Assembly: GCA_017535785.1 (NCBI GenBank)
Contig: JAFXTN010000012.1
Coordinates: forward strand, 1-49,102
Origin: Butyrivibrio sp.
GTDB taxonomy: Bacteria > Bacillota > Clostridia > Lachnospirales > Lachnospiraceae
Direction: 5' to 3'
DNA length: 49,102 nucleotides
Made by a program: the position numbers and the translations under genes. Under the pieces are notes generated by a model. It did no database searches and was not told where the DNA came from. It was given only the letters and a program-made list of their open reading frames with translations. Positions 33,203 through 39,149 of the stretch are shown here, piece by piece. Each line of letters starts with the position of its first letter. Position 1 is the first letter of the stretch.

Positions 33203-34582
33203 TTACGCAGCCTTTGACAACTGTCTTTCTTCTTTTCTGATACTTCCAAATTCTTTAGACATCATGATAAGAGAGATTGCAAGGACAACCAGATCGGTAA
33301 CGAGCTGTGCATAGAAAACTCCCTCAACATTTCTTTCGTAGAATCTTGGAAGGATAATAACTAAAGGAACAAATAACAAAAACTGTCTTAGTAGTGCGAT
33401 CGCTGCAGCAGCGCCACCTTTCCCGACTGCTTGGAAAAGAGTTATTGAAAGGATCAAAACTCCGTATGAAATATAACTTGTGAAAAGAACTCTAAGCATA
33501 CCGGCACCCTGCGAAGCGATAGCGGTTTCTTTGATGAACATAGAAAGCATTGTACCCGGCGCAAACATGATCGGAATATAAAATACAAGTGCAAGTACGG
33601 TCGCTGCGATCATGAATACCCTGGTAAACTGCCTTACTCTGCCAAATTGCTTTGCTCCGTAGTTGGTTCCTACGGCAGGCTGGAAGCCCTGTGATATGCC
33701 CCAAAGAGGGATAAATGCAAAAGCCTGAAGGCTTAAGGATGCACCGAGAATTGTCTGCCATTCTCCGCCACCCCATTTTGCAGCCGTGTTATACATAACG
33801 GTCTGCTGAACCATGGACATAACTTGCATGAGCATTGCGGATACGCCGACGCTGAGAACCGGACCGAGAATAGTTGTATCGATCCTGATTCTTCCAAGCT
33901 TGACATTGTCGCTCTTTTTCTTGAAATACCAAAGAGTGTAAGTTGCCTGACAGAACTGGGCGATAACTGTTGCAAGAGCTGCGCCCAGAACACCGTTTTC
34001 TTTTCCCATTACTGTGATGAGAATGGGGTCTAAAATGATGTTGAGGATAGCACCTGCGCCCATGATAGTCATTGCGATCTTAAGCTTTCCTTCTCCTCTC
34101 ATGACCATGTTAGCGGACTGAGAGAAGTTAACAAATAATGATCCACAGAAGACAAGCCTTAAGTATCTGGTGGCTTCCGCGAGGATATCATCCTGTGCTC
34201 CGGACAACGTGAGAAGCTGCGGAGCGAATGTGATCCCGAATACGGTGACGATAATTGAGAGAAGCAGCACAACTGCAGTAAGGTTTCCCATTATCCTGTT
34301 GACCGTGTCCTGATCTTTTTTACCGATTGCTCTTGAGAGCACCGATGCCGAGCCTGTTCCTATAAGGGTTGCTATTCCGCTATTAATGAGTGTAAAAGGG
34401 TAAGACACTTTAACTGCGGTCATAGCCTGCGACGTGACCATTTGTCCGACGAAAACGGCGTCCATGAAATTGTAGAGGCCGATAACGACCATCCCGAGGA
34501 TTGCGGGTATGCTCAGAGACAACATGGTCTTAAATACACTTCCCGTAAGAAGAGTATTCGTTGTGTCATTTGAGTTTTTCAT
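33203..34582 (-). CDS. MATE-family efflux transporter (second copy)
   Basis: A 459-residue MATE exporter, distinct in sequence from the one at 12900. The N terminus LLTGSVFKTMLSLSIPAILG followed by LYNFMDAVFVGQ is typical of the MepA-like group. Twelve membrane segments are evident. AAAGGA precedes its ATG. It is cotranscribed with the AraC regulator downstream. A promoter-linked dyad lies just upstream (34606-34634). The substrate is unknown. Confidence 0.9.
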   Translation of the reverse strand: MKNSNDTTNTLLTGSVFKTMLSLSIPAILGMVVIGLYNFMDAVFVGQMVTSQAMTAVKVSYPFTLINSGIATLIGTGSASVLSRAIGKKDQDTVNRIMGNLTAVVLLLSIIVTVFGITFAPQLLTLSGAQDDILAEATRYLRLVFCGSLFVNFSQSANMVMRGEGKLKIAMTIMGAGAILNIILDPILITVMGKENGVLGAALATVIAQFCQATYTLWYFKKKSDNVKLGRIRIDTTILGPVLSVGVSAMLMQVMSMVQQTVMYNTAAKWGGGEWQTILGASLSLQAFAFIPLWGISQGFQPAVGTNYGAKQFGRVRQFTRVFMIAATVLALVFYIPIMFAPGTMLSMFIKETAIASQGAGMLRVLFTSYISYGVLILSITLFQAVGKGGAAAAIALLRQFLLFVPLVIILPRFYERNVEGVFYAQLVTDLVVLAISLIMMSKEFGSIRKEERQLSKAA

Positions 34583-34634: not shown

Positions 34635-34811
34635 AGTATAATTTTGCACCTTTTTTGCGTCTACTCCGTTTTGCAATTATCATCCCGTTTAGCAATTGAA
34701 TTTTTATTTGCCTGAATACCTACACAACAAAGGCGTTTTGTGGTACAGTAAATGTGCTTGTTAATCTAAAGCAATTCGCATCCCCATGGGGAAATCTCCG
34801 AAGGAAAGGTG

Positions 34812-34885
34812 GTGGTTTTTATGAAGAAGGATTCACATAAATGTGGCAGCGATCCCGCTCCCGGTCGAAGTACCATAAAAACCGC
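34812..34885 (+). promoter_or_regulatory. Long-range stem in the mgtE 5' leader
   Basis: Positions 34812-34823 pair with 34874-34885 over 12 bp (one G-U). The left arm contains the leader ATG; the right arm ends 7 bases before the mgtE ribosome site (AAAAGGAG, 34892-34899). Smaller hairpins (CACA-TAAA-TGTG, GATC/GGTC) fit in the loop. Ribosomes on the leader would open this stem. Confidence 0.5.
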
Positions 34886-34937
34886 ACATAGAAAAGGAGA
34901 TTACCATGGAATTACAAGAAGAGAAGACAATCGTTGA
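34821..34937 (+). CDS. Candidate mgtE leader peptide, 38 residues
   Basis: Open frame from ATG 34821 to TGA 34935-34937, preceded by a purine-rich AAGGAAAGG (34801-34809). It overlaps the first 32 bases of mgtE in another frame. The peptide begins MKKDSHKCGSDPAPGRS and is rich in Lys, Arg and His. The Asp-Pro-Ala-Pro motif recalls the Glu-Pro-Asp-Pro of E. coli MgtL, whose translation destabilises ribosomes when Mg is low and so controls mgtA. The leader start codon lies inside a 12-bp RNA stem whose other arm ends just before the mgtE ribosome site. Translation of this frame is inferred, not shown. Confidence 0.5.
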   Translation: MKKDSHKCGSDPAPGRSTIKTAHRKGDYHGITRREDNR

Positions 34938-36270
34938 AATCTTAAAAGAGCTTCTTGAATCTAGGCAATACACCAAGCTTCGCCAGACAATCTCAGAGAT
35001 GAATACAGTAGATATCGCTGCTGCAATGGGAGAGATGGAGGATGAGGATTCCCTCAAGATGTTCAGGATCCTCCCCAAGGACATGGCTGCCGACGTATTT
35101 GCCGATCTGGAGCTGGATGATCAGCAATATATCATCCGTTCACTGTCAGATCGAGAGGCTTCCACAATCGTAGACAATCTAATGGCCGATGATGCTACCG
35201 ACCTTTTGGAGGAAATGCCGGCCAGTGTAGTTAAGCGCATACTTGCCAATGCAAGTCCCGAGACACGCGCTGATATCAATCACCTTCTGCAGTATCCTGA
35301 GGATTCCGCCGGAAGTATCATGACCGTGGAGTATGTCGATCTGCGTGAAGATATGTCCGTTACGGATGCTATCAACAGAATACGGCAAAAGGGTGTTGAT
35401 TCCGAGACCATCAATATCTGCTACGTTGTAACCAAGCAAAAGATATTGGTTGGAACCGTTGCGCTCAGATACCTGCTCATCATGAAACCCGATGATGTTA
35501 TCGGAGATATCATGAATACCAATGTCATCAGTATCAATACGATGACCGACCAGGAAGAAGCGGCCAGACTTTTCCAGAAGTACGGCTTCACCGCGATGCC
35601 CGTTGTTGATAACGAATCACGTATGGTTGGTATCATCACCATCGATGACGTTGTGGACATCATGGAAGAAGAGGCTACCGAGGATATCGAGAAGATGGCA
35701 GCTATCGTGCCGTCCGACAAGCCATATCCCAAGGTTGGAATATTTGAGACCTACAAGAGCAGAATGCCGTGGCTGTTGTTCCTCATGGTCAGCGCAACCT
35801 TTACGGGCGCGATCATAACCAAGTTTGAGGACGCGCTTTCCGCATATGTGATACTTACCGCATATATTCCGATGCTCATGGATACCGGCGGTAATGCGGG
35901 TTCGCAGGCCAGCGTTTCGATCATTCGTAGTCTTTCGTTAAAAGAGATCGAGTTTTCGAATCTTCTTAAGATCATATGGAAAGAGATAAGAGTTGCAGTG
36001 CTTTGCGGACTTACGCTGGCAGCAGCCAATTTCATAAAACTGATATTTATCGACAGACTCACCGTTTCGGTTGCGGCAGTTATTTGTTTGACACTTCTTA
36101 TGGTCGTTATCATTGCTAAGCTTATAGGTTGCTGTTTGCCGATGATCACTTCCAAGCTTGGATTTGACCCTGCTGTTATGGCGAGTCCCATGATCACAAC
36201 TATTGTTGATGCACTATCACTTCTTGCGTATTTTAACATCGCAACAAGATTGCTGCATCTGACGATATAG
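34906..36270 (+). CDS. mgtE: Magnesium transporter MgtE
   Basis: Mg-gated magnesium channel. The N-terminal helical domain has the MgtE repeats (DSLKMFRILPKDMAADVFADL, DDATDLLEEMPASVVKRIL). A CBS pair at about 135-255 is visible (MTVEYVDLREDMSVTDAI, GFTAMPVVDNESRMVGIITIDDVVD). Five C-terminal helices carry the pore, with PMLMDTGGNAGSQAS and the late DPAVMASPMITT. At 454 residues it is standard length. Its own Mg-sensing domain controls gating, while the leader suggests a second level of control on expression. AAAAGGAG precedes the ATG by 6 bases. Confidence 0.95.
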   Translation: MELQEEKTIVEILKELLESRQYTKLRQTISEMNTVDIAAAMGEMEDEDSLKMFRILPKDMAADVFADLELDDQQYIIRSLSDREASTIVDNLMADDATDLLEEMPASVVKRILANASPETRADINHLLQYPEDSAGSIMTVEYVDLREDMSVTDAINRIRQKGVDSETINICYVVTKQKILVGTVALRYLLIMKPDDVIGDIMNTNVISINTMTDQEEAARLFQKYGFTAMPVVDNESRMVGIITIDDVVDIMEEEATEDIEKMAAIVPSDKPYPKVGIFETYKSRMPWLLFLMVSATFTGAIITKFEDALSAYVILTAYIPMLMDTGGNAGSQASVSIIRSLSLKEIEFSNLLKIIWKEIRVAVLCGLTLAAANFIKLIFIDRLTVSVAAVICLTLLMVVIIAKLIGCCLPMITSKLGFDPAVMASPMITTIVDALSLLAYFNIATRLLHLTI

Positions 36271-38294: not shown

Positions 38295-39149
38295 ATGAAG
38301 ACAGTAAAAGAAGTTGCAAAAATATCAGGGCTTACCGAAAGAGCCATCAGACACTATGATGATATCGGGGTGCTTGTCCCCAAGAAAAGAAGCGAATCAG
38401 GCTATAGATTATATGATGAAGATGATCTTAAGAGGTTGCGCGCGATAGTCTTTTTGAGAGAGATGGGTATCCCTCTTTCCGAGATAAAAGAAATCCTGGA
38501 TTCCGGAAACTGTGATTACAACAGCATCCTCAAAGGGCAAAGAGAAAAGCTTGTGCTTAAGGTAAATAAGCTGCAAGGCTTGATCCGTGTGATCGACGGG
38601 CTTGATTCGGAGGGAAAAAATATAAGCTTTGAACCTTTCACTTCCGATGAAGCCAAGACTGTGTCAGATATCTTGATAAAAGAGGCTAAAGAAAAAGAAG
38701 CTGAGATCAAGAAGGTTACAAGTAAGCCTGTAAAAAAAGAAGATATTGCAGAGATGAAAAAGACTGTGGAGACCAATCTCACGCAAGGAGAGATCGGGGA
38801 AGATATTCTTCGAATGTACGGAAGTAAAGAAAACTACTTGAAAGCCCTTAAAGAAATAGATTCCATGACGCCCGAGGAACATAAGGCATTGGAAGAAGAG
38901 CTTAAGGATATCTATCACTCTTTTGCCAAACTTCCGAAGGATCAGACAAAGCGCCATAAACTTGTGCAGAGACTTGAGGATAACACGAACAAAATGTATC
39001 ACATGAGTAATGCACGCTCCATGCTGATTGCGGGCGCAAGATCATATATAAGTGATGCTAAAGTCGCGGGAGTTATAGATTCGCTCTATGGCGAAGGCGT
39101 CGCACGAAATGTAGGAAAAGCTGTGTTAGAATATTACGGGGAAAGTTAA
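38295..39149 (+). CDS. MerR-family regulator with TipAS-like C-terminal domain
   Basis: N-terminal winged helix of the MerR family: KTVKEVAKISGLTERAIRHYDD, then SGYRLYDEDDLKRLRAIVFLR and a dimerisation coiled coil (about 75-115). Residues about 145-284 form a helical domain resembling the TipAS antibiotic-binding domain, which in TipA-type proteins captures hydrophobic ligands. AGGAGG precedes the ATG. The promoter carries a stretched spacer with a matching dyad. It is followed after 31 bases by a small membrane protein, a likely co-regulated partner. Confidence 0.87.
   Translation: MKTVKEVAKISGLTERAIRHYDDIGVLVPKKRSESGYRLYDEDDLKRLRAIVFLREMGIPLSEIKEILDSGNCDYNSILKGQREKLVLKVNKLQGLIRVIDGLDSEGKNISFEPFTSDEAKTVSDILIKEAKEKEAEIKKVTSKPVKKEDIAEMKKTVETNLTQGEIGEDILRMYGSKENYLKALKEIDSMTPEEHKALEEELKDIYHSFAKLPKDQTKRHKLVQRLEDNTNKMYHMSNARSMLIAGARSYISDAKVAGVIDSLYGEGVARNVGKAVLEYYGES

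Follow-up and report, generated by a model that had tools for sequence, protein, structure and literature searches.

A conserved acidic-proline leader peptide running into mgtE in Butyrivibrio and its relatives, a candidate ribosome-mediated translational attenuator

How is the Mg2+ channel gene mgtE controlled in Butyrivibrio, and what is the role of the short open reading frame that runs into its start codon? The window (the whole stretch of 49,102 nucleotides of Butyrivibrio sp. DNA that was analyzed) contains a single copy of this gene, the product of which carries the Pfam domains MgtE_N, CBS, and MgtE and is thus a genuine MgtE. It is the only MgtE found in this genome, in which a CorA was likewise not found (assembly 90.8% complete). 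The original prediction described a 38-codon frame with its own ribosome site, starting 85 nt before mgtE, overlapping it by 32 nt, and carrying Asp-Pro-Ala-Pro at residues 11–14, and it proposed that this leader controls mgtE in the manner of MgtL. All of these elements are present in the sequence: the leader ATG (34821) lies 85 nt 5′ of the mgtE ATG (34906), the 32-nt overlap is read in the +1 frame with the leader stop (34937) inside mgtE, and the four residues occupy the expected positions.

The leader lies in an intergenic region that mgtE has in common with a divergent MATE-family transporter gene (33203–34582, − strand), and a MerR-family regulator with a TipAS antibiotic-recognition domain is encoded further downstream (38295–39149, + strand). 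A putative extended −10 promoter was read by eye upstream of the leader; TGTGnTAAAGT occurs at the matching position in several relatives, the site is absent from the list produced by the consensus scan, and transcription might start near 34756–34758. No intrinsic terminator between the leader and mgtE was listed in the scan of the window.

Table 1. Features of the mgtE leader region, in window coordinates
Feature	Position	Strand	Description and basis
Putative extended −10 promoter	34741..34749	+	TGGTACAGT; read by eye, tentative
P1 outer part, 5′ arm	34784..34789	+	CCATGG, predicted to pair with 34904–34909 over the mgtE start codon; MFE fold
P1 5′ arm (anti-ribosome-site of mgtE)	34793..34799	+	AATCTCC, pairs with 34896–34902; fold, partner swap, pair tally
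Leader ribosome-binding site	34803..34812	+	GGAAAGGTGG; sequence, conserved in leader alignment
P2 5′ arm	34809..34823	+	includes the leader start codon; folds, partner swap, consensus
Leader peptide ORF	34821..34937	+	38 codons, MKKDSHKCGSDPAPGRSTIKTAHRKGDYHGITRREDNR; sequence and comparison
Core codons SDPAPGRS, residues 10–17	34848..34871	+	acidic-proline motif, then Arg (CGA) and Ser
P2 3′ arm	34874..34889	+	folds, partner swap, consensus
mgtE ribosome-binding site	34893..34902	+	AAAGGAGATT; includes P1 3′ arm 34896–34902
mgtE	34906..36270	+	454-residue MgtE-family Mg2+ channel

The original prediction had recognized no M-box core. In agreement with this, the window gave no Rfam match at gathering score and no significant match locally; the sole local match at low threshold, to RAGATH-9 (E 5.8), was taken as chance. 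Nothing except tRNAs reached gathering score in 40 mgtE loci. Half of these 40 had a main or variant leader; the other 20 lacked the main layout, two of them (L063 and L066) turning out to have variant leaders. The M-box (RF00380) was found in none of the 37 genomes of the genus under strict filters, whereas among 24 members of the order outside the genus two (G037 and G056) have it upstream of mgtE, so the leader element may replace the M-box in the genus. A uORF associated with an M-box has been described in Mycobacterium, according to the portions of the source consulted (PMC12810186). A literature search on mgtE leaders, uORFs, and structured RNAs in Butyrivibrio, Lachnospiraceae, and Clostridia, with preprints and most subscription journals outside its scope, turned up no entry identifiable as this element.

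Homologues of mgtE were collected from 61 related genomes, of which 52 gave a match, and from the best 80 of 529 named-contig loci, the two sources sharing some genomes. The leader frame, whose conservation the original prediction had left to be checked in relatives, is kept in 30 of the 35 genus genomes that have mgtE (37 genomes in all), the five lacking it being L028, L029, L166, L167, and L168. Among the best 80 of the 529 named loci, classed by eye, 49 show the main layout, 7 carry variant leaders (L063, L066, L071, L092, L097, L098, and L099), and 24 have no such leader, including L048, L049, and L053, which are named as Butyrivibrio. Counting identical upstream regions once across both sources left 63 leaders in the main layout.

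A covariance model (R1) derived from 29 leaders matched 16 of 295 genomes in an order sample (E ≤ 1e-3; 15 upstream of mgtE), 35 of 397 in a family sample (E ≤ 0.01; 31 upstream of mgtE), and 7 of 391 in a class sample (E ≤ 1e-4), one of the last seven falling in another family (f66) and also upstream of mgtE; these counts are lower bounds because stricter filters were applied. At E ≤ 1e-4 the order and family samples together yielded 39 distinct loci, every one of them upstream of mgtE; 30 were new relative to the 63-leader set and the rest match partly by construction. The weaker matches L153, L154, and L159 are also located upstream of mgtE. Matches in front of other genes (L113, L128, L157, L158, L160, L161, and L162; E 7.9e-4 to 0.29) were judged to be chance. 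With the new model matches added to the 63 leaders, the set comprises 95 elements with 91 distinct peptides. As judged by sequence comparison, a conserved, translated short ORF thus lies directly 5′ of a Mg2+ transporter gene.

Several loci carry related or altered arrangements. L092 (Eisenbergiella tayi) and L098 have a 69-residue leader with the core SDVPVPGRS, and its overlap with mgtE is nevertheless 35 nt. In L107, L108, and L111, a similar-looking leader (DSHSQN, with a proline-rich stretch ending HPA) is found 150–200 nt upstream of mgtE without the P2 layout. In L103, the leader and both 5′ arms are apparently deleted, joining the promoter to the P2 3′ arm and mgtE, which might be a naturally constitutive form or an error of assembly. 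L127 (G008:C8) and L159 (G549:C47) have variant leaders that end before mgtE and include extra hairpins; in L127, CGGACAAA has two predicted alternative partners, the leader 5′ arm and a second copy of that arm just 5′ of the mgtE ribosome site, a choice of pairing that is possibly attenuator-like.

Stop codons and substitutions both bear on whether the leader frame is read. Of 63 distinct leaders, none has a stop before the mgtE ATG in the leader frame, compared with 59 of 63 in either other frame, and within the final 45 nt stops are present in 0, 56, and 40 of 63, by frame. The mean probability of an open frame in shuffled sequences was 0.40 for this set, which carries a mild bias in that at least 20 open codons had been demanded. 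Synonymous change inside the frame, which had been proposed as a test, was observed: with kinship ignored throughout, pN/pS was 0.30 in frame against 0.76 and 2.17 in the shifted frames for 22 distinct Butyrivibrio leaders, 0.39 against 1.16 and 1.09 for 10 PPHE leaders, and 0.60 against 1.26 and 1.75 for 43 D-x-P-x-P cores.

The relation of the leader to mgtE points in the same direction. In 93 of the 95 elements the leader runs across the mgtE start in a different frame (+1 in 52, +2 in 41), the overlap being 16–92 nt with a median of 32, and these 93 leaders are 31–57 residues long. Of the remaining two, the leader of L127 ends 54 nt before mgtE and that of L147 (G516:C30) is fused in frame to mgtE, the sole such case among the 95; full translation in L147 would yield an MgtE with an N-terminal extension. 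The rarity of the in-frame case fits genuine translation of the leader frame. The position of the leader stop varies and openness as far as the mgtE start is conserved, with the overlap itself apparently dispensable, since two leaders (L127 and L159) stop short of mgtE and a third (L147) is joined to it in frame.

The peptide has a recognizable core. An acidic residue followed by Pro 0–3 residues on, within residues 5–24, is present in all 95 elements compared with 32% of shuffled peptides, and acidic and proline residues accordingly lie inside the first 30 residues in every element. The median positions are residue 11 for the acidic residue and 14 for the last core Pro (93 elements). The motif as first proposed, DPxP, therefore survives as an acidic residue with a nearby proline and not as a literal conserved core: D/E-x-P-x-P is found in 45 of 95 elements (46 by pattern count, where L154 matches solely past residue 24), with examples such as SDPAPGRS, SDSAPGRS, SDNPLPRS, TDIPPHERS, SDVPLPSRS, and SDSDNPRSR. 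The core typically has a single acidic residue and mostly one or two prolines, which are adjacent in PPHE leaders and seldom elsewhere, and Arg-Ser occurs within residues 10–22 in 66 of 95. Arginine in codons 2–22 of the 95 leaders is encoded by CGA in 89 of 140 cases, whereas CGA makes up 99 of 1753 Arg codons in the 95 mgtE genes; the CGA codon of the window is at 34866–34868, and slow decoding of CGA could aid pausing. Taken together, these comparisons support translation of the leader frame and selection on its acid-proline motif.

The leader RNA is predicted to fold into a single long hairpin with two stems, P2 inside and P1 outside. The 12-bp stem originally predicted to hold the leader ATG is the core of P2 (34812–34823 with 34874–34885), which three more pairs extend to 34809/34889. 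That part of the structural claim stands, while P1, which would cover the mgtE ribosome site, had been overlooked. The outer part of P1 is missing from the predicted fold of the nearest relative (L003). Stability was moderately unusual for a 191-nt segment (z −2.45; 4 of 200 shuffles equally good) and less so for 115 nt (z −1.54; 18 of 200), and the case for P1 and P2 comes from comparison and not from single-sequence stability.

For this comparison, 93 elements (L127 and L147 were excluded from the arm and distance tests) were clustered into 71 representatives with under 80% similarity across their first 70 nt, and each arm was paired with its own or a foreign partner. P1 arms paired with their own partners at −12.19 kcal/mol against −8.17 kcal/mol with foreign ones, and P2 arms at −14.03 against −11.30 kcal/mol, with 0 of 10,000 permutations reaching these differences in either case; own partners did better than the average foreign one in 64 of the 71 representatives, both for P1 and for P2. 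At 10 of 23 tallied positions of P1 (positions 5–14 from the start of GGAG), AT, TA, GC, and CG pairs all occur, a tally that is biased toward pairing because each helix register was chosen by energy; the swap test, in which foreign pairings were optimized identically to own pairings, serves as its control. RNAalifold on a plain MAFFT alignment recovered P2 alone, with two of its pairs changed on both sides, and misses P1 because the P1 5′ arms cannot be aligned by sequence, which is why P1 was tested by partner swaps. Some folds show a small hairpin within the P2 loop, which is absent from the consensus, and no competing alternative stem appears in the MFE folds of the window.

The predicted effect of P1 on the mgtE ribosome site is large in the window, where the probability of the site being unpaired is 0.001 for the complete RNA and climbs to 0.746 once the P1 5′ arm is deleted. 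Among the 71 representatives, predicted accessibility is lower with the own 5′ arm than with a shuffled arm in 56, and the medians are 0.223 with the own arm, 0.539 with a shuffled arm, and 0.468 without the 5′ arm. Accessibility falls below 0.2 in only 28 of 71 elements, and in 15 of 71 the 5′ arm gives no drop. The comparison thus shows two co-varying stems, and modeling places the mgtE ribosome site hidden within them.

The frame is kept in most close relatives with synonymous change inside it, and no significant M-box match was found, so that the prediction withstood these two of the refuting conditions set for it, and a leader in the style of MgtL or MgtQ controlling mgtE is well supported; of the original proposal of MgtL-type control, the leader peptide holds, and the literal DPxP motif, as well as a structure without P1, does not. 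The likeliest reading, which we consider probable, is that the element is a ribosome-mediated translational attenuator of mgtE. In a leader free of ribosomes, P1 and P2 would form the one long hairpin, hiding the mgtE ribosome site and holding the leader start, and a ribosome initiating on the leader would open P2 and P1. It could then pause or fall off at the acid-proline motif, with about 14 residues in the tunnel. The front of a ribosome lies ∼16 nt ahead of its P site, and the last core Pro codon is a median of 14 nt from the P2 3′ arm (IQR 13–16) and 46 nt from the mgtE ATG (IQR 44–49). A ribosome whose P site holds that codon would therefore touch the P2 3′ arm with its leading edge, and because this leaves ∼46 nt to the mgtE ATG a second ribosome could start on mgtE. 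During smooth translation, the leader ribosome would instead cross the mgtE ribosome site and start codon out of frame, covering both, and the hairpin would reform behind it. This order of events on the mRNA is drawn from distances.

Mg2+ would be the signal by analogy with MgtL and MgtQ, and mgtE would rise at Mg2+ shortage because low Mg2+ favors ribosome loss at such motifs in MgtL. The sections of PMC11282234 consulted describe pausing or destabilization of E. coli ribosomes by early acidic residues and drop-off at the EPDP of MgtL at low Mg2+. They also state that acidic residues matter within the first 30 residues, not in every protein, and that the known destabilizing sequences are EPDP or acidic repeats, acidic pairs alone being sometimes insufficient (PMC11282234). 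The usually single acidic residue of the present core accordingly weighs against the attenuator reading, as do the relatives that carry no such leader, the elements in which the 5′ arm gives no drop in accessibility, the leaders without an out-of-frame overlap, and the recovery of P2 alone by RNAalifold.

The overlapping frames and the hidden downstream ribosome site are also the classical layout of translational coupling, in which full translation of the leader would unwind P1 and enable mgtE, loss of the ribosome would be the off state, and the signal would perhaps not be Mg2+. This appears rather unlikely, as a leader stop 16–92 nt (median 32) inside the downstream gene is far for reinitiation, loss at low Mg2+ would reduce an importer just when it is needed, and a conserved drop-off-type motif near codon 11 would serve no purpose.

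A sensor of slow decoding, responding to proline or EF-P supply or to scarce CGA, could likewise free mgtE by means of a parked ribosome. The excess of CGA among the leader arginines would suit it, as would the response of Salmonella mgtP to charged tRNA-Pro described in part of PMC8092293. We regard such a sensor as improbable given that the core prolines are few and seldom adjacent outside the PPHE leaders and that the element is found only with a Mg2+ channel.

The co-variation of the P1 and P2 arms could also reflect a switch made of RNA only, a hairpin that binds or is stabilized by Mg2+ with the frame as a passenger, and Mg2+ stabilizes helices in general. Purifying selection confined to the leader frame, the stop counts (0 of 63 against 59 of 63 in each other frame), and the lack of a conserved fold in the loop between the P2 arms make this very hard to sustain. 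A chance frame upstream of mgtE, which short length only would favor, is refuted in effect by the stop counts and pN/pS and by conservation across many genera and at least one further family (f66).

Ribosome-based Mg2+ sensing has been described for enterobacteria in the studies cited here, and a conserved mgtE leader across Lachnospiraceae would mean that such sensing arose repeatedly or is old, and that a leader element can substitute for the M-box that precedes mgtE elsewhere in the order. The 95 natural leaders are a ready-made mutational scan of ribosome-destabilizing nascent peptides, and in common rumen and gut bacteria the element is a candidate for the control of a Mg2+ channel.

Known systems resemble the element to differing degrees. 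The M-box (ykoK, RF00380) shares its place before mgtE in two members of the order and has no match in the window. In the Thioalkalivibrio mgtE motif, the ribosome site and start codon of a gene annotated as mgtE form part of a stem; in the portions of the source consulted the motif is reported only from there, as a riboswitch candidate and not a uORF, and is set apart from the present element by this description (PMC11109978). CorL, the uORF of corA, likewise precedes a Mg2+ channel gene and responds to Mg2+, with corL and corA inversely expressed, whereas it is described in part of PMC11552253 as enterobacterial, acting by Rho termination, and having few acidic or proline residues.

MgtQ, the ORF between mgtC and mgtB of Salmonella, likewise acts at the level of translation: it is a short ORF with acidic residues, accompanied by a stem in which the ribosome site of the transporter gene is concealed, and Asp and Glu lower translation of the ORF and raise mgtB by freeing that site, as set out in part of PMC8092293. 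The same arrangement is predicted here for P1 and the mgtE ribosome site. MgtQ has 8 residues, whereas the leaders of the overlapping set have 31–57 and cross the mgtE start, and the alternative stems described for MgtQ in the same portions of the source (1:2/3:4 versus 2:3; PMC8092293) have no counterpart in the MFE folds of the window.

MgtL, which precedes mgtA in E. coli and Salmonella, shows a striking resemblance in its peptide: it is likewise a short translated leader in which acidic and proline residues come early, and its D...PLPR matches the SDNPLPRS core. In mgtL of E. coli K-12, PLPRR is encoded by CCT CTC CCT CGA CGG, the first Arg codon being CGA, and the PLPR codons of L085 (CCT CTC CCT CGA) are identical. 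MgtL-type sensing also involves loss of ribosomes at the motif, which low Mg2+ aggravates and bL31 alleviates. The two differ in that MgtL acts through Rho-dependent transcription termination, according to part of PMC11282234, whereas the present element hides a ribosome site; mgtL ends 140 nt before mgtA, whereas the leader here overlaps mgtE; and the target of MgtL is a P-type ATPase as opposed to a channel of another family. The resemblance amounts to a short PLPR/CGA string and may reflect convergence, with no ancestry claimed. It appears conceivable, and we propose this with somewhat less confidence than attenuation as such, that Firmicutes independently evolved a ribosome-read Mg2+ gauge on MgtE, which converged with MgtL on an acidic residue, PLPR, and CGA, and in which failure of the ribosome at low Mg2+ switches the channel gene on, whereas smooth out-of-frame translation across the mgtE start is the off state.
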